This document shows, in pieces, positions 32,031-44,735 of a stretch of DNA of 64,000 nt. Numbering within the stretch: the stretch's first letter is position 1; the number at the start of each line of letters is the position of its first letter. The translations under genes were made by a program, and so were the position numbers. Source of the DNA: Micrococcaceae bacterium (GTDB taxonomy: Bacteria; Actinomycetota; Actinomycetes; Actinomycetales; Micrococcaceae); contig JAODMR010000084.1 in the NCBI GenBank assembly GCA_025465475.1, positions 1 to 64,000 of the forward strand. Direction: 5' to 3'. Under the pieces are notes generated by a model. It saw nothing but the letters and a program-made list of their open reading frames with translations, was not told the origin of the DNA and searched no databases.

Positions 32031-32067
32031 GTGACGGGTCATGAAGTGGCGGCCGGCGAAAGTGACG
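32031..32067 (+). promoter_or_regulatory. GTGACG boxes upstream of the flavin reductase
   Basis: GTGACGG at 32031-32037 and GTGACG at 32062-32067, 31 bp apart (about three helical turns), 117-153 bp upstream of the ATG. The same motif in the same sense orientation lies before three other units of this locus. Confidence 0.5.
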
Positions 32068-32183
32068 CCATGAGACGGCAGATGTACTCCCGTTAAGCGG
32101 CGTGTCGGTTGGTTGCAGTCCGTCTTGAGGCCGGTTCCGGGGACGTGGTTGATTGAACGTCACCAGCATCGAGAGGACCCTCC

Positions 32184-32750
32184 ATGACAGTTCCCACAGA
32201 CTTGACGCCGCGCCGGTTGCGCAACGTCCTAGGCCAGTTCGCCACCGGACTGACGGTCATCACTGCCAGCACACCGGCCGGACCGGCGGGCTTTACCTGC
32301 CAGTCGTTCGTGTCCCTGTCACTGGAACCACCCCTGGTCTCGTTCAATCCGACACGCACGTCAAACACGTGGCCCGTACTGCGCCACCTGGGAAGCTTCA
32401 CCGTGAATGTCCTTTCGGCTGAACTTGAACACCTGTCCGGTCAGTTTGGCCGTTCCGGAACTGACAAGTTCGCCGGCGTCGGCTACCACCTTTCCCCATT
32501 GGGGCATCCGGTGCTGGACAACGGGTTGGCGTGGATCGACTGTGAACTGGTCCAGGAGTACGACGGCGGTGACCACACGATTGTGGTTGCCGCGGTCCGC
32601 TCCCTGCAGTCCACGCACGACGGCGAGCCGCTGGTGTTCCACCGGGGTCGGTACGTCCGTCTGCAGCCCGGCGCCGAGGGAGCCGTTACCGCACCGCCAG
32701 CGGTTCCCGAAGCGCAGGCAGCGGGTGCTCCCTCCGGTGCAGTTGCCTGA
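32184..32750 (+). CDS. Flavin reductase domain protein (FMN reductase partner)
   Basis: 188 residues. The flavin reductase-like fold begins at about residue 10: LRNVLGQFATGLTVITAS, GFTCQSFVSLSLEPPLVSF, then FTVNVLSAEL, GLAWIDCELVQEYDGGDHTIVVAAV and the C-terminal PLVFHRGRYVRL. It uses NAD(P)H to make reduced FMN, which diffuses to two-component monooxygenases. Three LLM monooxygenases lie within 12 kb and lack a dedicated reductase, so it is the likely supplier. A Pro/Ala-rich tail of 25 residues is extra. A strong hairpin follows. Confidence 0.88.
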   Translation: MTVPTDLTPRRLRNVLGQFATGLTVITASTPAGPAGFTCQSFVSLSLEPPLVSFNPTRTSNTWPVLRHLGSFTVNVLSAELEHLSGQFGRSGTDKFAGVGYHLSPLGHPVLDNGLAWIDCELVQEYDGGDHTIVVAAVRSLQSTHDGEPLVFHRGRYVRLQPGAEGAVTAPPAVPEAQAAGAPSGAVA

Positions 32751-32790
32751 GACACGTTCTTCCCACCTCGCAGTGGCATCACAGCGCAGG

Positions 32791-32836
32791 CGCAAATATC
32801 CCCGGGGGGCTCTTGGCCCTACCGGGGATATTTGCG
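32791..32836. terminator. Bidirectional terminator hairpin
   Basis: CGCAAATATCCCCGG (32791-32805) pairs perfectly with CCGGGGATATTTGCG (32822-32836), loop 16 nt. It separates the flavin reductase from the convergent binding-protein gene. Confidence 0.85.
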
Positions 32837-32853
32837 TCGTCACCTATTACTGA

Positions 32854-33885
32854 TCAGGTATCAGGCAACCCGGGCGGGTTGGTTTGCGGGGCATCAATGG
32901 CTTCGGCGGTCAGGTTCCACCTCTTCAGCACCTCGGCGTAGGTGCCGTTGTCGAACGCTTCCTGGAGAGCCAGTTGCAGGGCGGTTACCAGCCCGTTGTC
33001 CTTGGCAGTGGTGGCAGCAATTTCGGCCTTCAGGGGAAAGCCGCCGGACACCGTTCCCACGAGTTTGGTCCGGCCCGTGCTTGCGGCCTGATACGCACCC
33101 GTAGCGTTGGGCCCAAAGGTGAGGTCCGCCCGGCCCGACTGGATGGCCAGCGACGCTGCAGCTTCGTCATCGTAGTACTGGAAGGCCACGGCGGGAAGGC
33201 CGGCGGCGGTGTTGCCGGCGTCCCAGGCCAGGAGGATCTTCTCCTGGTTCGTGCCGGAGCCGACGATGATCCGCTTGCCGGCGACGTCGGGCGCAGCGGT
33301 GATGGACGCAATGTCGTTGCCTGCCTTGGCGTAGAAGCCCAGCACGTCATTGCGGTAGGTGGCGAAATCAAAAAGCTGCTTGCGTTTTTCGGTCACCGTG
33401 ACGTTGCTGAAAACCACGTCGTATTTGCCTGACTGCACGCCCAGTGGCCAGTCCGCCCAGGCTGTTTGCTGAAGCTCCAACGTCAGCCCTAGCCCGTCGG
33501 CAACAAGCTGGGCAATGTCCGGCTCACTGCCGATGATCGTGGTGTTGTCAGTGGCGGTGAAGCTGAGCGGAGGGTTTCCGGTGCCCGTTGTTGCGACCAG
33601 CAGACGGCCACTGGAGCGGATCTTTTCGGGCAATGCGGCCACCGCCGCCGAATTGCGCTGCGACCGCACCCGGTGTTGGTCAGGATCTAGGTTGAAGGAG
33701 GTACCCGTGCCGGCAGCCGTGCCGGTACCCGTCGCGGTACCGGGCACGGCATTGTCTGCGTTGGCTTTGGTGGCGGCAGGGTCTGCGCAGCCGCTCAGGG
33801 CAAGGGCAGCCAGCAAGGGCAGGCCCAGCAGGGCCCGGCGGGGAAGTTCGCGGGCGGGGCGGGAGGACGGATGATGTAAAGGCAT
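32854..33885 (-). CDS. Polar amino-acid-type ABC substrate-binding lipoprotein
   Basis: 343 residues with a lipobox (LALSGC, Cys33) and a Thr/Gly-rich linker (TATGTGTAAGTGTSF). The family-3 binding fold shows LLVATTGTGNPPLSFTATDN, IIGSEPDIAQLVADGLGL, YDVVFSNVTVTEKRKQLFDFATYRND, and IIVGSGTNQEKILLAWDAG. It is a paralogue of the 40299 protein; both share the SGTNQEKILLAW segment. It has no permease of its own here and probably docks on the permease at 38510. The ligand is unknown; it is likely an amino acid derivative. Confidence 0.88.
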   Translation of the reverse strand: MPLHHPSSRPARELPRRALLGLPLLAALALSGCADPAATKANADNAVPGTATGTGTAAGTGTSFNLDPDQHRVRSQRNSAAVAALPEKIRSSGRLLVATTGTGNPPLSFTATDNTTIIGSEPDIAQLVADGLGLTLELQQTAWADWPLGVQSGKYDVVFSNVTVTEKRKQLFDFATYRNDVLGFYAKAGNDIASITAAPDVAGKRIIVGSGTNQEKILLAWDAGNTAAGLPAVAFQYYDDEAAASLAIQSGRADLTFGPNATGAYQAASTGRTKLVGTVSGGFPLKAEIAATTAKDNGLVTALQLALQEAFDNGTYAEVLKRWNLTAEAIDAPQTNPPGLPDT

Positions 33886-33947
33886 GGCTGTCTTTCCGGA
33901 GAAGGTCTCCTGGTTGGGACGCGGGGGAATGTCTCGGTGGTGTTGGT

Positions 33948-34475
33948 TCAGCTGTTGCTCGGTTGGCCGGCGCTCGCGGGCAGGACCTTGTCGAAGGCCA
34001 ACTGGCCCAGGTCCTCCGGGTCAGCGGCGAGATCAAATTGGGGCTGGTAACCGCAGGCCAAATAGAGGGCGCGTGCCTCCGGTTGGCGGGGGCCGGTAGT
34101 GAGGTGCACGGCGGCATATCCCCGGCGCTTGGCCTCGGCTTCGAGCCGGTCCAGCACCAGGCGGGCCAGCCCTTGGCGCCGGTGCGTTGACGCGGTCCAG
34201 ATCCTTTTGAATTCAGCAGTCCGTGCATCCCAACGCCGGAATGCTCCACCGGCGACGCTGACGCCGTCAACCAGTACCAAAAGGACAGCACCGTTTGGCG
34301 GTTCAAATTCCGTCGCAGGATAGCGGTTCAGTTCCGCTTCCACCGATCCTGACTGGTTGCCATAGCGGTTGGTGTATTCCGCTGCCAGTTCGTCCAATAA
34401 GGGGCGAACGCGGGGGTCATGCAGCGGAACCTGCACCACCTGCCATTTGGCGGTTGTGGTTGCAGTGGAGGTCAT
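33948..34475 (-). CDS. GNAT family N-acetyltransferase
   Basis: 175 residues with the GNAT fold. The acetyl-CoA pyrophosphate loop is THRRQGLARLVLDRLEAEA, preceded by the NGAVLLVLVDGVSVAGGAFRRWDARTAEFKRIWTAS strands. GPRQPEARALYLACGYQ is the typical C-terminal helix. Its ATG overlaps the stop of the LLM monooxygenase gene (ATGA), so the two are made together. Acetylation of a substrate before or after monooxygenation is a possibility (compare YxeL with YxeK in B. subtilis). The substrate is inferred only. Confidence 0.85.
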   Translation of the reverse strand: MTSTATTTAKWQVVQVPLHDPRVRPLLDELAAEYTNRYGNQSGSVEAELNRYPATEFEPPNGAVLLVLVDGVSVAGGAFRRWDARTAEFKRIWTASTHRRQGLARLVLDRLEAEAKRRGYAAVHLTTGPRQPEARALYLACGYQPQFDLAADPEDLGQLAFDKVLPASAGQPSNS

Positions 34476-35656
34476 GCTGCCGGCTGCCCGGGAAAGGAAC
34501 GCTGCGCGCCCACCGCACCGGCGCCCGCCGCACCGGCGCCCGCCAGACCGGCGCCCGCCAGACCGACCGTAGCCTGCCGGTGGGCAAGCTCCTGTCGAAC
34601 CAACGGAATCACGTGGCGCCCAAAGTCGACCGCGTCGGGAAGGGTGTCGTATCCCCGCGCCGAAATGACGTCCACGCCCAGTTCAATGTGGTCCACGAGG
34701 GCTCGGGCAACTGTCTCCGGTGAGCCGACCAGCGCGGTTGAGTTGCCGCCACCGCCGGTCAACCCGGCCGTACGGGTCCAGATGGCCCCATGTCGGCTGC
34801 CTTCCCTGGCGATCCGAAGCAACCGCTGAGAACCGGCGTTTTCGGGTTGCGTCAGTGACCTGCGGTGCCGGGCGACGGCTGCACCGGAGCGAAGCCGCTC
34901 CTGAAGCACCGCCTCAATGCGGTGCGCCCTTTCCCAGGCCAAGTCATCGGTGCGGCCGAGGATGGGACGGAACGCCACCTGGATTTTGGGTGCGTCCGCG
35001 CGTCCAGCGACACGAGCGGCCTCCCTAACGGTGCCGATCTGCTCAGCGGTGTCCTCCAACGGTTCTCCCCAGAGCGCGTAGACGTCCGCCTCTGCCGCTC
35101 CGACACTGTAGGCGGCGGTGGAAGAACCTCCGAAGGAAATCACGGGCCGGGGGGATTGTGCGGGAAAGATTTCAGCCGCGAAGTCCTCGAACTGGTAGTG
35201 CTTGCCGGCGAAGCTGAACGCTTCCCGGGAGGTCCAGGCCTGCTTCACGATCTGCAGGTATTCCCGCGTCCGTGCATACCGTTCGTCTTTGGGCAGGTGG
35301 TCGCCTTCCGCTGCCTGGTCTGCATCCGTTCCCCCGGTAATAAAGTGGACGCTCACCCGCCCGCTGCTGGCCTGGTCCAATGTTGCGTAGGTGGTCGCAG
35401 CGAAGGTGGGGTAGGAGACGTTTGGTCGGTGTGCCACAACGAGTCCCAGGCGCTCCGTCCGGGCGGCGACGAAGGCCGCCGCCTGCGCCGGGTCGGGTGT
35501 GGCCGAGGAGTAGGCAAAAAGGACCTTGTCCCAGCCGTTGTCCTCGTGGGCTTTGGCCAGGCGCAGCGTGTAGTCGGGGTCAAAAGCCGGTCCGGACGGT
35601 GGGGTGGTTTCCGTACCGTCGTTCAGTCCTGCCATGCCCAGGAACTGGATAGTCAT
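34472..35656 (-). CDS. LLM class flavin-dependent monooxygenase (SsuD-like)
   Basis: 394 residues with the luciferase-like TIM barrel: FDPDYTLRLAKAHEDNGWDKVLFAYSSATPDPAQAAAFVAA, the HRPNVSYPTFAATTYATLDQASSGRVSVHFITGG flavin region, and FEDFAAEIFPAQSPRPVISFGGSS. These match alkanesulfonate-type monooxygenases, which use FMNH2 and O2 to cleave C-S bonds. The C-terminus carries a repeated Gly-Ala-Gly tail from 15-bp DNA repeats. It is coupled to the GNAT gene, and tandem GTGAC boxes lie upstream. The substrate is not determined. Confidence 0.88.
   Translation of the reverse strand: MTIQFLGMAGLNDGTETTPPSGPAFDPDYTLRLAKAHEDNGWDKVLFAYSSATPDPAQAAAFVAARTERLGLVVAHRPNVSYPTFAATTYATLDQASSGRVSVHFITGGTDADQAAEGDHLPKDERYARTREYLQIVKQAWTSREAFSFAGKHYQFEDFAAEIFPAQSPRPVISFGGSSTAAYSVGAAEADVYALWGEPLEDTAEQIGTVREAARVAGRADAPKIQVAFRPILGRTDDLAWERAHRIEAVLQERLRSGAAVARHRRSLTQPENAGSQRLLRIAREGSRHGAIWTRTAGLTGGGGNSTALVGSPETVARALVDHIELGVDVISARGYDTLPDAVDFGRHVIPLVRQELAHRQATVGLAGAGLAGAGAAGAGAVGAQRSFPGQPAA
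34516..34565. repeat. 15-bp tandem repeat, 3.3 copies, at the 3' end of the LLM gene
   Basis: Unit CACCGGCGCCCGCCG with first and last bases varying, at 34516, 34531, 34546 and partly at 34561. It encodes the in-frame AGAGL/AGAGA tail on the minus strand. Confidence 0.85.
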
Positions 35657-35781
35657 GTTGCACCTTCCTCGTTGCGAACCAGCGATGGTGACCCTGTCCG
35701 GGAGGATCCCGCTGCTCGGTCCATTGAACGTAGAAGCGCCGGGTGATGGGGGTCAATTGAGTGCGACTCGGGGGTTAACGG

Positions 35782-35811
35782 GCGGTCACGGGCGGTCACC
35801 GGACGTCACGG
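35782..35811 (-). promoter_or_regulatory. Three 10-bp-phased GTGAC boxes upstream of the LLM monooxygenase
   Basis: GTCAC on the plus strand (GTGAC in the sense of the gene) at 35785, 35795 and 35805, exactly 10 bp apart. They lie 129-154 bp before the LLM start and just past the SRPBCC stop. The face-of-helix phasing suggests cooperative binding by a direct-repeat-recognising regulator. Confidence 0.6.
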
Positions 35812-35821
35812 AACGCAGTAC

Positions 35822-36346
35822 TCAGGCCTGGGTTCCGGACGTGCGTTCGCAGACAAGCCGCAACGCCTCCAGCTCCTGCCGGCTGTTTTCTACGATGGTG
35901 TCCAGGACGGACGCCAGCACCGAAGGAGCCATGGCCGTGACCGTCAGCTGGTGCTGAAGTTCAACGGTGGCGACTCCGTCATTCCTGCTGATCTGCCAGT
36001 GGCCGGTGAGGGCGAGCAGGGGAGGTTGCAGGTCGGTGCGCTGGAACAACAGCCTGCGGCCGGACGGGTCGAACACGCGCCGGCACGTGCTGGCATGAAG
36101 GGTTCCGTCCACGACAGCAGATAGGCGCAGCACGTGGTCGCGGTCCGTCCCGCTGATCCGCTCAGCGTAGGCCGTTACCCCCTTCAGTTCCGGCCAATGC
36201 GAGAGGTCCCGGAGTGCGCCGAAAATAGCGGCGTCGAAGGCCTTGATCGTTACCGAGTGGCTGACCTCGTAGCGGCCGGCTAAAGCAGGCGGAGGGGCTG
36301 CCCGGGCTGGCGACGGGGCGGTCGACCCGCCAGAAGGGTGGTTCAT
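35822..36346 (-). CDS. SRPBCC-fold (START-like) protein
   Basis: 174 residues. A Pro/Ala-rich start is followed by YEVSHSVTIKAFDAAIFGALRDLSHWPELKGVTAYAERISG and later LTGHWQISRNDGVATVELQHQLTVTAM, the pattern of polyketide-cyclase/SRPBCC proteins with a hydrophobic cavity. It begins 3 nt after the FAD protein stops. Its strong GAGGAGG site lies within the end of that gene, so the two are tightly coupled. Its role is unknown; binding the product or substrate of the FAD protein is possible. Confidence 0.75.
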   Translation of the reverse strand: MNHPSGGSTAPSPARAAPPPALAGRYEVSHSVTIKAFDAAIFGALRDLSHWPELKGVTAYAERISGTDRDHVLRLSAVVDGTLHASTCRRVFDPSGRRLLFQRTDLQPPLLALTGHWQISRNDGVATVELQHQLTVTAMAPSVLASVLDTIVENSRQELEALRLVCERTSGTQA

Positions 36347-36349
36347 GCC

Positions 36350-38269
36350 CTATTCCTCCTCTGGTGCGGACATCGCCGGCTGCCGCGTCCGGTTGGCGAG
36401 GACCAGGAGCCGGCGGGCGAGCGCATCGTTTTCCCGAAAGGGTGCGGCATTGGTGCCGGGTCGGGCGAAAGCCCCGGACGCCCATCCCGAGGTGCCCGGC
36501 CCCACGGCGAACAGTCCCGGCACCTGATCTCCCATCGCGTCCAGCAGGGCGTTGTCGCCGTCGACCAGCAACCGCCCGGTGGATTGCAGGCCGTCCACGG
36601 TGAGCAGCAGCTGCTCCTGGCCCAACCCCGAGGAATGGAGTCGGTGCAACAGCGGGTTCGCTGTCCCCGCCAGGGCCGGAGCCGGCAACCGCGCTTCGAT
36701 CAGGACCGGCGACGTGACGGACGGGCCACCCTGGCCGGAGCAAGCGGTAAAGCACCCGGCCTGTTCATCCACGTCCACGATTAACCCCGGTCCCAGGAAG
36801 GAGAGCAACCCGGCGCGGTGCAGGGCAAGCATTTGCCTGAGCCGCTGCGGCGGAGGACCGGAATCAACAAAGCTGAAGAACCCGTGCCACCAACCTTGCA
36901 CGATCCGCTGTGACCGGGCATTCAGTTGTTCCGGAAGGACCAGCCGGCCCAACTCCATATAGGTGCCCAGCAAGCCCAGGAAGAGCGCGAGGGATTCCGA
37001 GTGATCAGGACCCGTCCGCAGCAGCAGGTCCTGCTCAATGTGGCTGATTACCGCCTGTTGGACGGCGGTTGAGTCGGAGAAGCTCCTGCCGTTTAAAGGC
37101 TGGTCGAGGGTCTCCAGGTTCAGGTGCAGGAAGGAGTCCGGTACAGCGTCGGCCACCAGCCGTTCGCGTTCCCCGCTGTACCAGTCCAGGTCCGCGAACC
37201 GGGCGGAGAAGTCCTGCCAGCTGGCGTTCATGACATGGGGGCGGGCGGCAAACAGCTCCTGGTAGTAGGCGTATGCCAGGTCCTTTGCGATCAACGGCCA
37301 CAGGTGGGCCATGAAGTCCAACTCCCCATTGGCTTGCAGGAGTGCGGCGACGGCCGGTGGAGTGAGGAACCGGGGTGTGGTGTGGGACAGGCCGCGCAGC
37401 GTGGCCGAGACTTTGGAGTGGTAGGGGACGCCCCGCCGGGAGCCGGCCCAGAGGTGGGGCTCCCGGCCGGAGGGCAGGTAGCGCAGGCCACCGGCCGACT
37501 CCACGAACCGGCCACCCCTGCCCTCCATCAGGATCACCAACAAGTCAACGAAGGCCAGTCCCATCCCGCTGACGATGACGTCCTGTCCGGCAGGAACGGC
37601 CGCATAGTCGACGTCGGCGGTGTAGCTGGGCGGAATGTGGACAGCGCCGTGGCGGGCAGCGAAATCGGACCAGGCCACTGAAGTGCCCTCGGGCCGGGCG
37701 TCGGTGTGACCGATGGCCACCACCAGTAAATCGGCGTCCAGGGCTTCCCCACCCGCTAGCCGTAGTCGGAAGCCGGCTCCCGTCCGCTCGACGTCGATGG
37801 CGGTGTCCCGGTGAACCGTCACGGTCGCTTTCGGCTGCAGACGGCGAACGGCGCGGCAAAAGAACCACTCCAGGTAGCGGCTGTGCAGTTGCCGGGTCGG
37901 AAATGTCCCCGGTTGCAGGGAACGCAACTGCTCGTGCAGGTGGCGGGGCATGTCCGGCGCATCAGCCACGGATCCATCCAGGACGGCCTTGGCCCATTCG
38001 AACAGGCTGGGTCCGGGGTCGGATGGACCATCACATTGAACAGACGCATCAGTAAACATGGTGACGTCGGCGGCTGTCGAGTTCAGCAGAAGCCCCGGGT
38101 CCTGATCGAGCCGCCAAATGCGGCCGGACCCCGGCCGGTGAGGTTCCACCACATGAATGTCCAGCGGGCCGGCATGGATTGCCTCCCGGTTCGCTGCCAG
38201 CCGCTCCAACAGTCCGGCCGTGCGTGGACCACCGCCAACGAAGACCATTGACGGGGGTTGTTCTGGCAC
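36350..38269 (-). CDS. FAD/NAD(P)-binding protein (NAD_binding_9 / HI0933-like)
   Basis: 639 residues from a GTG at 38269 placed 6 nt after CAGGAG; an ATG at 38305 lacks such a site. The N-terminal dinucleotide fold is MVFVGGGPRTAGLLERLAAN. It is followed by FAD contacts (GRIWRLDQDPGLLLNSTAADVTMF), the LLVVAIGHTDARPEG strand, and a C-terminal AVGPGTSGWASGAFARPGTNAAPF. The family resembles flavoprotein N-hydroxylases of unknown substrate. It is coupled to the SRPBCC gene and divergent from the ABC permease. GTGAC boxes lie 80-105 bp upstream. Confidence 0.82.
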   Translation of the reverse strand: MPEQPPSMVFVGGGPRTAGLLERLAANREAIHAGPLDIHVVEPHRPGSGRIWRLDQDPGLLLNSTAADVTMFTDASVQCDGPSDPGPSLFEWAKAVLDGSVADAPDMPRHLHEQLRSLQPGTFPTRQLHSRYLEWFFCRAVRRLQPKATVTVHRDTAIDVERTGAGFRLRLAGGEALDADLLVVAIGHTDARPEGTSVAWSDFAARHGAVHIPPSYTADVDYAAVPAGQDVIVSGMGLAFVDLLVILMEGRGGRFVESAGGLRYLPSGREPHLWAGSRRGVPYHSKVSATLRGLSHTTPRFLTPPAVAALLQANGELDFMAHLWPLIAKDLAYAYYQELFAARPHVMNASWQDFSARFADLDWYSGERERLVADAVPDSFLHLNLETLDQPLNGRSFSDSTAVQQAVISHIEQDLLLRTGPDHSESLALFLGLLGTYMELGRLVLPEQLNARSQRIVQGWWHGFFSFVDSGPPPQRLRQMLALHRAGLLSFLGPGLIVDVDEQAGCFTACSGQGGPSVTSPVLIEARLPAPALAGTANPLLHRLHSSGLGQEQLLLTVDGLQSTGRLLVDGDNALLDAMGDQVPGLFAVGPGTSGWASGAFARPGTNAAPFRENDALARRLLVLANRTRQPAMSAPEEE

Positions 38270-38350
38270 GGCTGCTCCTGATCGTGGCTGGCTGGAAGCC
38301 CTCATGCTAGGTGGCGGGCGACGGGCCGGTCGACCAGGCGGTAACCCCCG

Positions 38351-38374
38351 GTCACGACGCGTCACATGGGGTCA
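38351..38374 (-). promoter_or_regulatory. 10-bp-phased GTGAC boxes upstream of the FAD protein gene
   Basis: GTCAC at 38351 and 38361 and GTCA at 38371 on the plus strand, that is GTGAC in the sense of the minus-strand FAD gene, in exact 10-bp steps. Confidence 0.55.
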
Positions 38375-38395
38375 AAAAAAGAAAGAAACCGTCTT

Positions 38396-38422
38396 GTGAC
38401 GGCAGAAGTAGCCCGGTGACGG
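38396..38422 (+). promoter_or_regulatory. GTGACGG boxes upstream of the ABC permease
   Basis: GTGACGG at 38396-38402 and 38416-38422, 20 bp apart (two helical turns), 88-114 bp before the permease ATG. They share the 240-bp divergent region with the boxes for the FAD gene. Confidence 0.55.
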
Positions 38423-38509
38423 AATGCAACAGGCAACTTTTGATCGTCAGAATCGCGCCCTTAGATTTGCAGCCACCAGGCAGGTTTCCACGGCGAGGAG
38501 CAGGACGTC

Positions 38510-39493
38510 ATGAGTTCAACAGCAACCAGAGCATTGCTTCCACCCGGCGCGCAGGGCCCTCCACCGGCTGCCGCGGACGCGGTCCCTCGTTATTCGCAGT
38601 ACCACCTTGTCGGGTCCCGGCATCCGTGGCGTTGGGCCGGCACTGCCCTGGTTGCGTTGCTGGTCATCGGCGTCGCGTGGTCGCTTATCACCAATCCCCG
38701 GTGGGAGTGGGCAGTGGTGGGCCAATGGTTCACCGCCCAGTCGGTCCTCCACGGATTGGGAGAGACGCTCCGGCTGACGGCAATTTCCGGAATTCTGGGG
38801 TTCGTCCTCGGCTTCCTTCTGGCCTTGATGCGGCTGTCCGGCTCGCCCCTCCTGGTGGCCGTGTCCTGGACCTTCTCCTGGATTTTCCGTTCCACGCCGC
38901 TGCTGGTGCAGATGCTCCTTTGGTACAACCTGGGGTACCTCTACGAAAAAGTCAGCGTGGGGATCCCCTTCACGGACGTTCGGTTCTTCGAGGTCCCCAC
39001 GACCACCCTGATCAGCCAGTTCGCTGCTGCGGTACTTGGGCTGACGCTCAATCAGGCGGCCTATTCGGCCGAAATCATCCGAGGCGGCATCCTGTCCGTG
39101 GACCAGGGCCAACTGGAGGCGGCAGCGGCGCTGGGCATTCCGGCATGGCGTCGGTCCACCGGCATCGTCCTTCCTCAGGCCATGCGCGCTATCCTGCCCA
39201 CCGCCTTCAACGAAATTATCGGGTTGGTTAAGGGCACGTCAATCGTGTACGTCCTGGCGTACTCCGAGCTGTTCTACACCGTGCAGGTCATCTACAACCG
39301 GACCCAGCAGGTGCTTCCCCTGCTCCTGGTTGCCACGCTCTGGTACGTCGTCATTACCTCGGTGCTCAGCGTCTTCCAGTACTACATCGAACGGTATTAC
39401 GCGAAGGGGGCAGTGCGCACCCTGCCGCTGACACCCCTGCAGAAGGCCAGGAAATATCTGTCAACCCATGCTGCAGGAAAGGTGACCCGATGA
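38510..39493 (+). CDS. Amino-acid-type ABC transporter permease (HisM family)
   Basis: 327 residues with a hydrophilic start, then five or six membrane segments. The family signature is clear: [54 protein letters not shown], and the EAA loop [37 protein letters not shown]. It is probably a homodimer, since no second permease is present. The next gene overlaps by 4 nt. It would serve both binding proteins (32854 and 40299). Confidence 0.93.
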
Positions 39494-40287
39494 GCCGGCC
39501 CGCCCAGACGAGGGGTCTCGTTGAGATCACCGACGTCCGCAAGTCCTTCGGCACCGTTGAGGTACTGCACGGCATCACCCTCACCGTTCAGCCGGGGGAG
39601 GTCACGGTCATCGTCGGACCATCAGGGTCAGGCAAGTCGACCCTGCTGCGCACCATCAACCATCTGGAGAAGGTCGACGGCGGATTCATCGCCATCGACG
39701 GTTCCTTGATTGGCTACCGCGGAAAGGGCACCAAACTGCACGAGCTGCCGGAACGGGAAATTCTCAAGCAGCGCACCGAGATCGGCATGGTCTTCCAGAA
39801 CTTTAATTTGTTCCCTCACTTCACCGCTCTGGAAAACGTCACCGAAGCTCCCGTGGTGGCGCAGGGCCGGTCACGGACCGAGGCACGGAAACTCGGGCTG
39901 GAATTGCTAGACCGGGTGGGACTGAAGGACCGCGCCAACGCCTACCCCCGTCAGCTCTCGGGTGGGCAGCAGCAACGGGTGGCCATTGCGCGGGCCCTGG
40001 CGCTCGAACCCAAAGTGCTGCTCTTTGACGAGCCCACCTCGGCCCTTGACCCCGAGCTGGTCAATGAGGTCCTTGACGTCATGCGGGAGCTGACCGAGTC
40101 CGGGACCACCCTGCTCATCGTCACCCACGAAATGGCGTTCGCCCGCGACGTCGCCGACCGGGTGATCTTCATGGACCAGGGACGCATCGTCGAACAGGGC
40201 ACCCCGCAGGAACTGTTCAGCAACCCCCAGGAGGAACGGACCCGTGCCTTCCTGTCCAAAATCCTCGAACCCGCATTCAACATTTAA
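39490..40287 (+). CDS. Amino-acid-type ABC transporter ATP-binding protein
   Basis: 265 residues with complete ATPase motifs: Walker [11 protein letters not shown]-loop [18 protein letters not shown], signature [15 protein letters not shown], Walker [17 protein letters not shown], and the switch His in [14 protein letters not shown]. It closely matches GlnQ/HisP-type subunits of polar amino acid importers. It overlaps the permease by 4 nt and is followed after 11 nt by the binding protein. Confidence 0.95.
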
Positions 40288-40298
40288 GGACCACCCCC

Positions 40299-41303
40299 AT
40301 GGCACCGCTAGCGCCTCGACGCTTCCGCAGCACCGTTCCTGCCCTTCTTGCCCTTAGCGCCGTCGTCGGTTCCGCCACCCTGACGGGCTGCTCGGACCCT
40401 TCAGCAGCTGCCTCTGTCGGCGGGGCGGAAACCTCCGCAGCCGGCAACGGCATCATCTACAACACCTCCCCCGACCAGCAGCGCATCCGGGCGGACAAAG
40501 ACCCGGCGTTGGCCGCGGAGGTGCCCGACCTGATCAGCAAGGACGGGAAGCTGACCGTCGCCACTACGGCGGGGTCCGTTCCGCTGTCCTTCCACGCAAC
40601 AGACGACAAAACGCCCATTGGCTCGGAACTGGACCTCGCCCAACTCGTCGCTGACAAACTCGGCCTGGCACTGGACGTGCAGGTCACGTCCTGGGAAAAC
40701 TGGCCGCTGAAAACCCAGTCCGGCGACTTCGAGGCCGTGTTCTCCAATGTGGGCATCAACGCCGACCGGGTGAAACTCTTCGATTTCGCCAGCTACCGTG
40801 CCGCCTACATGGGCTTCGAAGCCAAGAAGAGCTCCAGCTATGACATCAAGGCCGCTGACGACATTTCCGGGCTGAAGGTTTCCGTGGGCTCGGGCACCAA
40901 CCAGGAAAAAATTCTGCTGGCCTGGAACAAGGAACTCGAAGGCAAGGGGAAGGCGCCGGCCGAACTGCAGTACTACTCGTCCGAGGCAGACACCATCCTG
41001 GCGCTATCCTCCGGCCGGACAGACCTCAACATCGGCCCCTACCCGTCGGCCGTCTACCGGCAGAACACCCGCAACGACCTGAAAGTGGTGGGCAAGGTTA
41101 ACGCAGGCTGGCCGAACGAGACGCTCGTGGCCGCCACCACCTTGAAGGGCAACGGCCTGGCACCGGTCCTCACCGATGCGTTGAACTCCGCGATCGAGGA
41201 CGGATCCTACGGAAAGGTACTGGAACGCTGGGGCCTGTCAGAAGAAGCCATCCCCTCCTCGACAACAGTCACCGAGGCCACCTTCCCGGGCGGCACGAAG
41301 TGA
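40299..41303 (+). CDS. ABC transporter substrate-binding lipoprotein (polar amino acid type)
   Basis: 334 residues with a lipobox (TLTGC, Cys30) and the family-3 fold: LTVATTAGSVPLSFHATDDKTPIGSELDLAQLVADKLGL, DFEAVFSNVGINADRVKLFDFASYRA, and VSVGSGTNQEKILLAWNKELEG. It is a paralogue of the 32854 protein, both keeping SGTNQEKILLAW and the YY(D/S)xEA segment. Its gene follows the ATPase, and its stop overlaps the DUF1684 start (GTGA). The ligand is unknown. Confidence 0.92.
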   Translation: MAPLAPRRFRSTVPALLALSAVVGSATLTGCSDPSAAASVGGAETSAAGNGIIYNTSPDQQRIRADKDPALAAEVPDLISKDGKLTVATTAGSVPLSFHATDDKTPIGSELDLAQLVADKLGLALDVQVTSWENWPLKTQSGDFEAVFSNVGINADRVKLFDFASYRAAYMGFEAKKSSSYDIKAADDISGLKVSVGSGTNQEKILLAWNKELEGKGKAPAELQYYSSEADTILALSSGRTDLNIGPYPSAVYRQNTRNDLKVVGKVNAGWPNETLVAATTLKGNGLAPVLTDALNSAIEDGSYGKVLERWGLSEEAIPSSTTVTEATFPGGTK

Positions 41304-42157
41304 AACGCGAGGTCCTGGACCCAACGACGGAGGCTTCCGGCCAGAAGCTTTTCGCCGCAGCCTGGCGGGACTGGCATGACAGTCATGAAGCCAGACGCGC
41401 CGACCGGCACGGGTTCCTCGCCGTGACGCACCTGCATTGGCTGGACGAAGCGGCCCAACGGCTGGCCGGGGTCCCCGGTCTGTGGCAGGTCCGCGACGAC
41501 GTTGTGCACCTGGTCCTGGGCCCCGACGAGAACCTGCTCCGCGACGGGGACAGCCTCAACCCGGAAGGGCGCGGCGCTGACGTGGTTTTCGAGCCCATCC
41601 CGGAACGGGGCGGATTGAACCTGGTGGCCGGTGAGACGGTATTCGAGCTTGCCCGCCGTGGCGGTGCGCATCTCATCCGTCCACGATCGCCGCACAACCC
41701 GCTGCTGCTTGGCTACCGGGGCACCCCGGCGTATGCCCCGGAACCCCGCTACGTCGTTCCGGGAAGGTTCACGCCGTTTGATGTTCCCCGGCCGACGACG
41801 GTGGGTGCCGCCGTGGAAGGGATCCAGCACGTCTACGAAGCGCCCGGCGCGGTCAGCTTCGAACTGGAGGGACGGCAGCTCAGCCTGACCGCCTTCAACG
41901 GTGCGGGGGAGGGGTCCCTGCTGTTCCTGTTCACCGACGCCACCTCCGGGGTCACCACCTACGCGGCCAACCGCTCACTCACCGTTGCAGCCCCAGACCC
42001 GGACGGAACCGTCACGCTGGACTTCAACCGGGCGGTCAACCTTCCCTGCGCCTACACCGACCTCGCCACCTGCCCCCTGCCTCCCGCTGAAAACCGGCTC
42101 CCCGTACCGATCGCCGCCGGAGAAAAGATCCCCTACGAACGTCAGGACCTGCAATGA
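41300..42157 (+). CDS. DUF1684 family protein
   Basis: 285 residues, GTG start overlapping the preceding stop. DUF1684 hallmarks: WRDWHDSHEARRADRHGFLAVTHLHWLDEAAQRL at the N-terminus, and the C-terminal VTLDFNRAVNLPCAYTDLATCPLPPAENRLPVPIAAGEKIPYE, which holds two cysteines. The family has no proven activity. It often sits with ABC importers and flavin monooxygenases, as here, so a role in handling the imported compound is likely. No signal peptide. Confidence 0.88.
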   Translation: MKREVLDPTTEASGQKLFAAAWRDWHDSHEARRADRHGFLAVTHLHWLDEAAQRLAGVPGLWQVRDDVVHLVLGPDENLLRDGDSLNPEGRGADVVFEPIPERGGLNLVAGETVFELARRGGAHLIRPRSPHNPLLLGYRGTPAYAPEPRYVVPGRFTPFDVPRPTTVGAAVEGIQHVYEAPGAVSFELEGRQLSLTAFNGAGEGSLLFLFTDATSGVTTYAANRSLTVAAPDPDGTVTLDFNRAVNLPCAYTDLATCPLPPAENRLPVPIAAGEKIPYERQDLQ

Positions 42158-43335
42158 CGGACACCCAAACGCCCTTCCCGCCGGAACGCGGAGGCCTGCT
42201 CCTGCTGGACCTCGACGGATCCGGCGCCCACCCCGCCGCCTGGCGGCTCGATCCGGCCGGTCCGGCCCGGTCACTGCTCCCGCAGCGCCTGCGGGAAACC
42301 GTGCTGGCAGCTGAATCGGCTGGCTTCCACGCGGCAACCTTCTCCGACGGGCCCACTCCGCGCAACCCCTCCGCCGCAGCCCACCTGGACGCCCTGCAGC
42401 GGGCAGCCTTCGCGGCGCCCGTCACCCGATCGCTGGCACTGATCCCCGAAGTCGACACTGTCTATACCGAGCCCTTCCATGTCGGCACCCAACTGGCCAG
42501 CCTTGACTACGTATCGTTGGGAAGGGCCGGCTGGCTGGTTGCGGCGTCGGCCGATGCTGCCGCTGCCGCCGCCGTGGGGCGGGAGCACGTGGCGGCACCA
42601 GCGCTGGCGGACGAGGCCGCTGACGCGATCGAGGTCAGCCGGCGGTTGTGGGACAGCTGGGAAGACGACGCCGTCATCCGGGACGTCCCGTCGGGGCGCT
42701 ACCTCGACGTGGACAAACTGCACTACGCCGATTTCGCCGGCAGGAACTACTCCGTCAAGGGTCCGGCCATCATCCCCCGGCCCCCACAGGGGCAACTGCC
42801 CGTGCTGGCACCGGCAGGGTTGCTGGCCCCCGAACAGGTGGCAGCCGGAGCCGTCGACGGGCTCCTGCTTTCCGCCCCGGCGCCCGGGCTCCTGGCCGCC
42901 GAGGTGACGGCCGCGAGGGCGCAAAACCAGCCACGCGTGGCCGGCGGTCCGGCCCTGATCGTCGAACTCGACATCGTCCTGGACGCCCGCGGCCAGTCGG
43001 CGTCGGACCGCCTGGCGGCCCTTGATGCGTACACTCCCTGGCAGGAAACCCGCGCCCGGTTCACCGGAACAGCCGCGGAGCTCGCCGACCTGCTGGCAGA
43101 ACTGCTGCTGGTCACCGACGGTGTCCGGCTGCACCCAGCGGTCCTGGACGTCGAACTCGAAGAACTGGCGCGGCTGGTGCTGCCGGCCCTCCGCCTCCGC
43201 GGGCTGCTGGCCCCCATCCACCCCGACGCGACCTTCCGGGAACAGCTTGGCCTGTCCCGGCCCCCCAGCCGGTACGCCGATGCGGTCACTCGGGCCACCA
43301 CTGCCGTCCCGTCAACCCGAGGAGCGAACGCATGA
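42154..43335 (+). CDS. Diverged LLM (luciferase-like) oxidoreductase subunit
   Basis: 393 residues. LLM features are present but diluted: a first strand GGLLLLDLDGSGAHPAAWRL (compare NtaA-type GHHPAAWR), SLDYVSLGRAGWLVAASAD for the usual DLLSGGR region, then VSRRLWDSWEDDAVIRD and YADFAGRNYSVKGPAIIPRPPQGQLPVLAPAG. The catalytic core is less conserved than in the next gene, and flavin contacts look weakened. It overlaps DUF1684 and the next LLM gene by 4 nt each. It may form a heteromeric pair with the NtaA-type enzyme, an inference from coupling. Confidence 0.8.
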   Translation: MTDTQTPFPPERGGLLLLDLDGSGAHPAAWRLDPAGPARSLLPQRLRETVLAAESAGFHAATFSDGPTPRNPSAAAHLDALQRAAFAAPVTRSLALIPEVDTVYTEPFHVGTQLASLDYVSLGRAGWLVAASADAAAAAAVGREHVAAPALADEAADAIEVSRRLWDSWEDDAVIRDVPSGRYLDVDKLHYADFAGRNYSVKGPAIIPRPPQGQLPVLAPAGLLAPEQVAAGAVDGLLLSAPAPGLLAAEVTAARAQNQPRVAGGPALIVELDIVLDARGQSASDRLAALDAYTPWQETRARFTGTAAELADLLAELLLVTDGVRLHPAVLDVELEELARLVLPALRLRGLLAPIHPDATFREQLGLSRPPSRYADAVTRATTAVPSTRGANA

Positions 43336-44735
43336 GCGAGCAGACCGAACCAGCGACCACCTTTGTCCCATCGGGCCGTCTGCAGCTGGGAGTCTTCTTC
43401 CAGGGAGTCAACTCGGGAACCGTCTGGAAGGCGGCCGAGTCCGGTTCCCAAACGGACTTCGAGTCTTTCCGGCGGATAGCGCAGACCGCCGAGCGGGGCC
43501 TGTTCGCCGCATTCTTCCTGGGCGAGGGCCTCCGCTTGCGGGAGCACCTCGGCAGGCCACACGCCCTGGACGTGGCAGGACGGCCGGACGCGCAGACCAT
43601 GCTCGCCGCGCTCGCGGCGATCACCTCAAGGATCGGGCTCGTTGCCACACAAAACACCACTTACAACGACCCGGCCGACCTGGCGCACCGGTTGTCCACC
43701 CTGGACCTGCTGTCCGGAGGACGTGCAGCCTGGAATGTGGTGACCACTGACAACGCCTGGACCGGGGCAAACTTCCGGCGCGGGGGATATCTTGACCACG
43801 CGGATCGCTACCGCCACGCCGAGGCGTTCGTTCAGACGGCCAAGGAAATCTGGGACTCATGGGACGAGGGTGCCCTGGCCGCCAGCGGAACGGACGAGAC
43901 CTGGGTGGACCGGGCTGCACTTCGTCCGATCCACCATAACGGTCGCCATTACACCGTTGACTACCTGCCCAGGCTGCCGCGTAGCCCCCAGCACCACCCG
44001 GTGCTCTTCCAGGCCGGGGACTCCCCGGAAGGCAGAAACTTCGCCGCGCGGCAGGCCGACGTTATTTTTTCGGCGCACCCCCAGTACGACGACGCCCTTC
44101 AGTTCCGCAGCGACATTGTGGCCCGCACCGTTGCGGCTGGCCGCGGAGCAAATGACGTCAAAATCATGCCTGCCAGCGAATTCATTTTGGGCGCCACCTC
44201 GAAGGAGGCCCAGGACAAAAAGGCATGGGTGCGCAGCCTGCAGATCGGACCCCAACAGGCCATCGCTTACCTCGAGCAGTTCTGGGGGCGTGAACTGTCG
44301 GCCTACGATCCGGACGGCCCGTTGCCGGACATTGACCCGGTGGTGGAGGAGACCTCGGAGACCAGGGGAAGCGGTTTCCACGGAGCCAAGGCCCGTGAAC
44401 TCGCAAGTACCTGGCGCAGCGAAGCGGCCGAAAAGGGACTCACCATCCGGCAGTTCGTCAGTGCCAGGACCAGCAGGGGCGACGCGACGTTCACCGGCTC
44501 CTACACCGAGGTTGCCGACCGGTTGCAGCAGTATGCCGTCACGGGGGCGGTGGACGGCTTCAACATCTCACCCTGGCTCATCCCCACAGGCCTGGATGAC
44601 ATTGTGAACCATCTGGTTCCGGCGTTACAGGAACGCGGGGTGTATCCCACCGAGTACGAAGGCAGCACGCTGCGGGATAACCTGGGCCTCGCCAACCCCG
44701 CTCGGTTGCCGACGCTTTCCCCGGCGTCGGCATGA
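43332..44735 (+). CDS. NtaA/SnaA/DszA-type FMN-dependent monooxygenase
   Basis: 467 residues, the normal length for this family. Signatures: GVNSGTVWKAAESGSQTDFESFRRIAQTAERGLFAAFFLGEGL, GLVATQNTTYNDPADLAHRLSTLDLLSGGRAAWNVVTTDNAWTGANFRRGGYLDHADRY, and QAGDSPEGRNFAARQADVIFS. These enzymes use FMNH2 to oxidise nitrilotriacetate, dimethyl sulfone, dibenzothiophene sulfone or S-(2-succino)cysteine-like compounds. The flavin reductase at 32184 can supply FMNH2. The substrate is undetermined. A 74-codon frame overlaps its stop. Confidence 0.92.
   Translation: MSEQTEPATTFVPSGRLQLGVFFQGVNSGTVWKAAESGSQTDFESFRRIAQTAERGLFAAFFLGEGLRLREHLGRPHALDVAGRPDAQTMLAALAAITSRIGLVATQNTTYNDPADLAHRLSTLDLLSGGRAAWNVVTTDNAWTGANFRRGGYLDHADRYRHAEAFVQTAKEIWDSWDEGALAASGTDETWVDRAALRPIHHNGRHYTVDYLPRLPRSPQHHPVLFQAGDSPEGRNFAARQADVIFSAHPQYDDALQFRSDIVARTVAAGRGANDVKIMPASEFILGATSKEAQDKKAWVRSLQIGPQQAIAYLEQFWGRELSAYDPDGPLPDIDPVVEETSETRGSGFHGAKARELASTWRSEAAEKGLTIRQFVSARTSRGDATFTGSYTEVADRLQQYAVTGAVDGFNISPWLIPTGLDDIVNHLVPALQERGVYPTEYEGSTLRDNLGLANPARLPTLSPASA

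Follow-up and report, generated by a model that had tools for sequence, protein, structure and literature searches.

The window, that is, the whole 64-kb stretch of DNA analysed here, carries a monooxygenase and ABC transporter locus in which four promoter regions contain arrays of short direct repeats related to GT(G/T)A(A/C), set 10 bp apart. The arrays, the genes that they precede and the promoter elements predicted near them are as follows.

35775..35809, minus strand: four-box array GTGAC-N5-GTGAC-N5-GTGAC-N5-GTTAA before the LLM monooxygenase operon, scoring 20/20
34472-35656, 33948-34475 and 32854-33885: LLM monooxygenase operon (LLM, GNAT and family 3 SBP genes, respectively)
35727..35732, minus strand: -10 element TACGTT of the LLM operon, predicted from sequence only, 47 bp from the start of box 4
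38341..38375, minus strand: four-box array TTGAC-N5-GTGAC-N5-GTGAC-N5-GTTAC before the FAD-NAD(P) protein and Polyketide_cyc2-like genes, scoring 19/20
38269, minus strand: GTG start of the FAD-NAD(P) protein gene
38304..38309, minus strand: predicted -10 element TAGCAT of the FAD gene, 36 bp from the start of box 4, with the hexamer at the same position in orthologs
38396..38430, plus strand: weaker four-box series GTGAC, AAGTA, GTGAC, GCAAC before the ABC permease operon
38510-44735, plus strand: ABC permease operon (permease, ATPase, family 3 SBP, DUF1684 and two LLM enzymes)
38462..38467, plus strand: predicted -10 element TAGATT of the permease operon, 36 bp from the start of box 4
32062..32116, plus strand: degenerate six-box array GTGAC, GAGAC, ATGTA, GTTAA, GTGTC, GTTGC before the flavin reductase gene (start 32184), scoring 25/30
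32148..32153, plus strand: weak -10-like GTTGAT of the flavin reductase gene, picked by eye, 36 bp from the start of the last box (32112)
32031..32035, plus strand: GTGAC listed by the first-pass annotation, 31 bp from 32062, out of phase and excluded from the array

The arrays lie 119-153 bp (LLM), 72-106 bp (FAD, with GTG 38269 as the start), 80-114 bp (permease) and 68-122 bp (flavin reductase) from the start codons. The GTGAC copies reported by the first-pass annotation are all present at their coordinates except that at 38371, which reads TTGAC. Those at 35785/35795/35805 and 38351/38361 lie on the minus strand, in the sense orientation of the genes downstream, in line with its description of them as sense-strand copies. 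Its proposal that the spacings place the boxes on one face of the helix is borne out by a 10-bp phase far above chance, but not by 32031 and 32062. At the flavin reductase gene that pair gives way to boxes that keep phase from 32062 to 32116, GTGAC being the sequence of the first one alone. Before the permease, the 20-bp pair corresponds to the first and third boxes of a series of four, which taken alone is weak.

As a single word GTGAC is not enriched in the window (153 observed versus 160.8 expected). The enrichment resides in its phased repetition: GTGAC-N5-GTGAC occurs three times versus 0.21 expected, and GTKAM-N5-GTKAM-N5-GTKAM three times versus 0.01. The box form is GT(G/T)A(A/C), and its arrays at exactly 10 bp are far above chance in the 64-kb window, including before the genes in question. 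In a six-box scan of the window at 10-bp phase, the LLM, FAD and flavin reductase promoters rank first at 25/30 each, compared with a maximum of 23 in 60 first-order Markov windows and a best score of 22 at periods 7, 8, 9, 11, 12 and 13. When four boxes are scored, the null maximum is 17; the LLM (20/20) and FAD (19/20) arrays lie above it, and the flavin reductase array (17/20) equals it without exceeding it.

The arrays are also conserved in related loci; neither of the outcomes that the first-pass annotation had given as refuting its proposal was observed. Upstream of the FAD gene, the best 80 of 196 relatives were compared, and 72 of these 80 loci have a four-box array scoring at least 17/20, at period 10 only. 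Reduction of these 80 by similarity left 64 promoters, which contain 88 box pairs at 10 bp, 38 at 20 bp and at most two at any other distance up to 60 bp; a reversed-letter control on the same 64 gave no pairs at 10 bp. The spacers vary over dozens of these loci and the phase is kept. On the permease side of 64 loci, again from the best 80 of 196, relaxed boxes form 134, 76 and 49 pairs at 10, 20 and 30 bp, and strict boxes show no clear pattern (10 pairs at 10 bp and 13 at 20 bp). The weak permease series is thus supported by its orthologs, through the 10-bp phase of relaxed boxes. Among ssuA-type promoters, 21 of 40 loci score at least 13/15 at period 10, while periods 8, 9, 11 and 12 give 0, 0, 1 and 0, and a TAnnnT lies 45-46 bp from the last box in 18 of the 21. 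The other 19 ssuA loci have no array, in many cases apparently because ssuA directly follows cysN.

Similar arrays precede ssuA, cysG, fprA, sir, metY-like and metE genes in other genomes. A sulfur homolog lies downstream of 18 of 30 family arrays and of none of 21 reversed-pattern controls (Fisher p 3e-6, a value that ignores relatedness), so that one operator is common to several sulfur operons. The 30 loci derive from 36 array rows: five of the others repeat arrays already counted, in overlapping frames, and the sixth (G010:C8:75822) lacks its own locus; 21 of 22 reversed-pattern rows were tested. For f7, f17 and f20, array rows were examined where they had a locus, besides stretches fetched separately. 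The sulfur reference set consists of FAD and ssuA loci picked by homology, not by motif, and shares genomes with the tested arrays; only 3 of 28 arrays of f19 matched it. Within the genome itself, the exact triple has two copies, both at sulfur promoters, and the relaxed triple has four zero-mismatch matches on three sulfur promoters, the reversed pattern having none. Across the family the raw excess is modest (36 rows versus 22 reversed for the relaxed triple, 20 versus 15 for the exact one). The zero-mismatch triple is absent from four genus mates, three of which score 13-14/15 at ssuA. These patterns make it very probable that the arrays serve as operators for a sulfur regulon. The possible new regulon of the first-pass annotation is thereby supported and can be named as one of sulfur acquisition and cysteine and methionine synthesis. 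Separately, no sulfur gene was seen at the one-mismatch matches on C17 and C94.

The arrays differ from two operators described for actinobacterial sulfur genes. CysR and SsuR of Corynebacterium glutamicum are ROK-type activators of sulfate-reduction and sulfonate genes that bind 10-bp inverted repeats upstream of -35, with A/T-rich half-sites of the TGAAtnnAAt type (PMC2580772); they share with the system proposed here the role of activating sulfur genes in an actinobacterium, but the arrays here are phased GTGAC direct repeats, not inverted ones. NdgR of Streptomyces coelicolor, an IclR-type protein, binds upstream of cys and met genes and also of branched-chain amino-acid genes, at a 15-bp imperfect palindrome of the GTCCAC...GGAC type (PMC4340878). 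The targets are alike, whereas the arrays are direct repeats of another sequence and form no such palindrome. With the wrong motif, both NdgR and CysR/SsuR were rejected as binders. As short-box direct repeats at 10-11 bp in a single orientation, the arrays instead have the layout of OmpR/PhoB-type sites.

Their position just upstream of promoter-like sequence suggests an activator that binds direct repeats, as the first-pass annotation proposed, and perhaps a single protein, at all of them. The best candidate is an orphan OmpR/GlnR-type winged-helix protein (G000:C96:36573-37538, minus strand; L191, L266), encoded at a site unlinked to the window and giving no receiver match. PDB matches place GlnR and other OmpR-type winged-helix regulators closest to its DNA-binding domain, and its nearest relative in its own genome is the GlnR-like L186 (RTIDVHIRRLRSKLG versus RTVDVHVRRLRAKLG). 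Among the genomes listed for f1, f6 and f19, the families with sense-strand sulfur arrays, all 30 have a homolog with E<1e-27; the listing leaves out three genomes without a match, and 5 of the 10 f6 matches cover little more than the DNA-binding domain. Matches in f11 reach 1e-25, with no shared cysteine leader there. It may simply be that f1, f6 and f19 are closely related.

The candidate gene is often preceded by a short ORF with Cys codons at its end (...MCCCRMQA; ...MCCRMCR; ...MLCVRCR), and in the genome analysed here these codons are consecutive. At least two Cys in the last eight residues of the upstream short ORF are found for 21 of 30 candidate genes versus 83 of 721 other genes, and the Cys residues are kept through TGT/TGC changes, that is, conserved as coding. 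The arrangement is that expected of a cysteine-responsive leader, with Cys codons near the stop, though partial in f1, where 5 or 6 of 11 have it and about half lack it. A looser cut-off of two Cys in the last 12 residues discriminates poorly: among control genes 161 of 721 pass it, and so do two further OmpR-type genes in the genome as well as 3 of 10 f11 loci. A leader signature found in 22 of 30 versus 1 of 721 is circular, having been drawn from the same leaders, and its p-values ignore relatedness. No Rfam family matched in the five leader loci searched. Cysteine leader peptides with Cys codons near the stop of a short ORF, and with no conserved terminator described, are known before actinobacterial cys operons (PMC1262725; also Canestrari 2020, as cited in PMC9094748). 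Those leaders precede enzyme genes, whereas the one here precedes a candidate regulator gene. A search upstream of the winged-helix gene itself turned up no array, and autoregulation was rejected: an upstream GTTAC pair fits a -35/-10 pair, and in f6 the GTGAC before the leaders is probably the leader start codon.

Whether the winged-helix protein binds the arrays appears evenly balanced. We lean slightly towards the whole proposal that the arrays are sulfur-starvation operators bound by this protein under its Cys leader. In this model, each box would accommodate one DNA-binding domain. A promoter would have three to six such boxes, all facing the same way and spaced by one helix turn, on which activators would line up head to tail immediately before a sigma-70-type promoter, with 36 or about 46 bp between the start of the last box and the -10 element. 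Low cysteinyl-tRNA would stall the leader ribosome and raise the level of the regulator, which would turn on the sulfonate, sulfate and organosulfur genes, including the locus in the window. The arrays point to a hitherto undescribed switch, which probably turns on sulfur uptake at low cysteine. A more tentative extension, for which we hold somewhat less than even confidence, is a master sulfur switch, unlike any found described, of Micrococcaceae-type actinobacteria and two or more further families of the order, in which a receiver-less GlnR-like activator, set by the Cys leader, lines up head to tail on 10-bp arrays of sulfate, sulfonate, organosulfur and methionine genes and the sensor is Cys-codon translation, not a bound metabolite.

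Appreciably below even, yet a serious contender, is the reading that the same operator and sulfur regulon are served by another unlinked binder, such as an AraC-type dimer, an IclR-type protein or an MraZ-like ring. No regulator gene adjoins the arrays, which makes the winged-helix link indirect, and AraC-type proteins carry two HTH motifs in each monomer, so that a dimer would match four phased boxes. In the MraZ operator, a multi-subunit protein recognizes three boxes phased at 10 bp, although the box sequence and target genes there are other than those here; triples of other sequence at 10 bp do exist in the family, several reversed-pattern controls being AAGTGGGGNNAAGTGGGGTAAAGTG-like, as MraZ boxes are. 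Against another binder, the box sequence and phase fit OmpR-type winged helices such as OmpR and CpxR, and the candidate combines the family distribution of the sulfur arrays with a cysteine-coded leader. It is improbable that a GlnR-type nitrogen regulator, the genome's own L186, binds the arrays and that the regulon answers to nitrogen. GlnR/OmpR-type regulators recognize tandem direct repeats of GTnAC-like boxes, the GlnR a-site resembles the GTnAC of the arrays, and the recognition helix of L186 is nearly identical to that of the candidate, which differs from GlnR in giving no receiver match. Both amtB promoters of this genome, however, carry GTnAC/GAAAC boxes at 11 bp, the GlnR arrangement, whereas the sulfur arrays run at 10 bp with none at 11, and their targets are sulfur genes; this phasing of the amtB promoters makes sulfur, not nitrogen, limitation the candidate signal. 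That the repeats are accidental, or are tandem repeats that drift and have no regulatory role, as some plainly low-complexity or coding matches elsewhere are (L200, L208, L211, L213), was already disfavoured and is scarcely credible given variable spacers at constant phase across dozens of loci, arrays shared by unrelated sulfur promoters and a steady -10 distance.

In the open literature, with most subscription journals outside the coverage, no description was found of this operator or regulator, or of how Arthrobacter-type soil bacteria sense and respond to sulfur shortage. A conserved operator of exact geometry would make the regulon predictable in many genomes of the order, would assign little-known genes (the FAD-NAD(P) protein, DUF1684 and the LLM pairs) to sulfur supply, and comes with one named candidate regulator. 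If the cysteine-leader model is true, the logic is unlike that of CysB or CysR, the regulon being driven by translation of the leader of its activator.

Two other regulators near sulfur-related genes were set aside. A PucR-type regulator clusters beside fprA in 10 of 40 ssuA loci; it is convergent with the operon tail, adjoins an aldehyde dehydrogenase gene in both loci checked (L121, L137), and is read as a bystander. A HemD-winged-helix protein (L194), whose gene follows those for a nitrite/sulfite-reductase flavoprotein and for a tetrapyrrole methylase, is read as nitrite-linked. Near the G062 ortholog, a four-box array is oriented away from that gene.

Counted singly, GTGAC shows no enrichment across the window (153 occurrences against 160.8 expected). 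Box counts are therefore no evidence in themselves, and it is the phase that is informative. Relaxed GT(G/T)A(A/C) boxes (GTKAM) repeated as triples at 10 bp occur three times in the window where 0.01 is expected, which bears out the view of the first-pass annotation that GTGAC repeats upstream of four transcription units, often in 10-bp phase, could mark a regulon. In a six-box phased scan of both window strands, the top three scores (25/30 each) fall at the LLM monooxygenase, FAD-NAD(P) protein (FAD) and flavin reductase promoters; the maximum never exceeded 23 in sixty Markov windows, and never 22 at periods of 7-9 and 11-13 bp. The individual boxes proposed earlier are correct in letters and position except at 38371, which reads TTGAC. 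At the flavin reductase promoter the array is the run at 32062-32116 and not the pair at 32031 and 32062; with four-box scoring this run equals the null maximum without exceeding it. At the ABC permease, the two GTGAC copies 20 bp apart are the first and third members of a series of four boxes that is weaker.

The element is also conserved in related loci. The best 80 of 196 loci of FAD-protein relatives were taken, mostly from Arthrobacter, Pseudarthrobacter and Paenarthrobacter, and pairs were counted over 64 non-redundant promoters. GTKAM pairs number 88 at 10 bp and 38 at 20 bp, with at most 2 at every other distance up to 60 and 0 at 10 in the letter-reversed control. Four-box scores of at least 17/20 are reached in 72 of the 80 loci, with a consensus of TTGAC-N5-GTGAC-N5-GT(G/T)AA-N5-GT(G/T)AC and spacer letters that vary. 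On the permease-facing strand, pair counts for relaxed boxes are highest at 10, 20 and 30 bp (134, 76 and 49); strict boxes give no clean signal there. One Arthrobacter-like FAD locus (L097, 58% identity) comes from an entry labelled Vibrio cholerae strain 35D, an assembly that is probably mislabelled or contaminated.

The arrays are very probably the operator of a sulfur regulon. The genome holds two copies of the exact triple, one before the LLM gene and one on contig C22, between cysN and the gene of an SsuA-family binding protein (TIGR01728 match barely over cut-off); its four zero-mismatch relaxed triples fall on three sulfur promoters, of which the window contains two. Raw excess over the reversed pattern is modest, both for the exact triple (20 rows versus 15; 295 family genomes) and for the relaxed one (36 versus 22; 100 family genomes). 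Gene context, unlike raw counts, separates arrays from controls: 18/30 distinct arrays are followed within 1 kb by a sulfur-assimilation homolog on the same strand, versus 0/21 controls (Fisher p 3e-6). The reversed pattern itself matches another phased three-box array, AAGTGGGG...AAAGTG (L236, L237, L238, L239, L244), presumably the MraZ operator, which serves as an internal positive case of boxes in 10-bp phase. Beyond the reference set, the pattern also fitted an OAH-sulfhydrylase-like gene (L026), a rhodanese gene (L014) and a divergent Sulf_transp gene (L173). Wider searches covered 248 genomes at order level and 120 of family f19; many further matches are unclassified or plain repeats, and just 3 of 28 arrays in f19 have a reference-set match.

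Genes with an array upstream, at order level or in f19 (locus handles in brackets)
Sulfite reductase (L221, L222), named by homology
O-acetylhomoserine sulfhydrylase (L219)
MetE (L205)
SfnB-like oxidase (L320), under the model's cut-off
NtaA-type LLM enzyme (L311)
Rhodanese gene (L223)
OsmC-like genes (L313, L318)
DUF1684 gene (L226)

In two f6 genomes (L204, L206) a GTGAC triple also precedes an MFS transporter gene, of like kind in both. Read by eye, pdxS-like genes lie near GTGAC arrays in two families (L012, L214), either by chance or through a link with PLP supply.

The window genes themselves look like an organosulfur scavenging set. The LLM monooxygenases have SsuD, SfnG and NtaA as nearest models, the cut-off being passed by 43332-44732 only, and are accompanied by GNAT, flavin reductase, family-3 binding proteins and a polar amino-acid type permease. 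S-alkyl-cysteine operons are known in Bacillus, and by analogy the locus is read as serving uptake and oxidation of alkyl-sulfur compounds, a putative substrate class.

The start of the last box lies 36 bp from a -10-like hexamer at FAD and the permease and 47 bp at the LLM gene; a weak GTTGAT at the flavin reductase is also consistent with 36 bp. In 18 of 21 array-bearing ssuA-type promoters, TAnnnT occurs 45-46 bp from the last box. The two distance classes are one helix turn apart, as would be required of an activator contacting RNA polymerase from one face, and we infer activation.

No regulator gene adjoins the array locus. OmpR-type winged helices typically have binding sites made of tandem GT-rich boxes 10-11 bp apart, and this genome has nine matches to that domain. 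Among these nine, one protein shows a match to that domain and to no other:

G000:C96:36573-37538, minus strand (L191, L266), orphan receiver-less OmpR/GlnR-like winged-helix protein

This C96 protein has about an even chance of being the binder of the arrays. Each of the 30 listed f1, f6 and f19 genomes has a match below 1e-27, and no other listed family of a 149-genome set does; three genomes of these families with no match fall outside those listed. Half of the f6 matches (5/10) span little more than the DNA-binding domain, and f11 has a match as good as 1e-25. Sense-strand arrays before sulfur genes were found in the same three families (the rows covered for f7, f17 and f20 being those with a locus); one array of f11 is at metF, on the opposite strand. 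Of six aligned own-genome relatives, GlnR-like L186 is nearest at 31% (C96 protein RTIDVHIRRLRSKLG, L186 RTVDVHVRRLRAKLG). We take L186 to be GlnR, as we do the best PDB match, 8hig; no NCBIfam name scores above cut-off for L186, nor for the candidate among the best 25 of 39 matches. The amtB promoters of this genome (L308, L309) carry GTnAC/GAAAC boxes phased at 11 bp, so the nitrogen system looks separate; these boxes have the textbook form and offer a useful contrast to the 10-bp sulfur arrays.

A short ORF with Cys codons at its end often lies upstream of the C96-type gene. It reads ...FMCCCRMQA in this genome, and counterparts end in CCRMC(R/H/C/S) in f19 and are LCVR-type in f6; TGT/TGC codon changes retain Cys. 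Leaders with at least two Cys precede 5/11, 8/9 and 7/10 loci in f1, f19 and f6, respectively. Scored in the same way for both groups, some short upstream ORF has at least two Cys in its last 8 residues in 21/30 C96-type genes versus 83/721 others, a comparison whose p-value overstates the significance because the orthologs are related. It is quite possible, though somewhat less likely than not, that a receiver-less GlnR-like activator whose synthesis is set by a Cys leader lines up on the 10-bp arrays as a master sulfur switch; confidence is held down by the weak discrimination of the loose Cys-leader test in control genes and by partial coverage in f6.

Published accounts describe control of similar genes through inverted sites by CysR/SsuR (PMC2580772) and through palindromic sites by NdgR (PMC4340878), whereas the sites here are phased direct-repeat arrays. 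Cys leader peptides are already known upstream of actinobacterial cys operons (PMC1262725) and as mycobacterial sORFs (PMC9094748). Searches of open-access papers, which span just part of the literature, yielded no account of the array operator or of a Cys-leader-controlled regulator for it. Short ORFs with Cys near the stop also lie between array and ssuA (L157, L138, L139, L140, L142, L121, L127, L129 and others; about 10/21 loci), for example ...MPRCRARR and ...NTCRAS, and are perhaps a second, cysteine-dependent layer of control.
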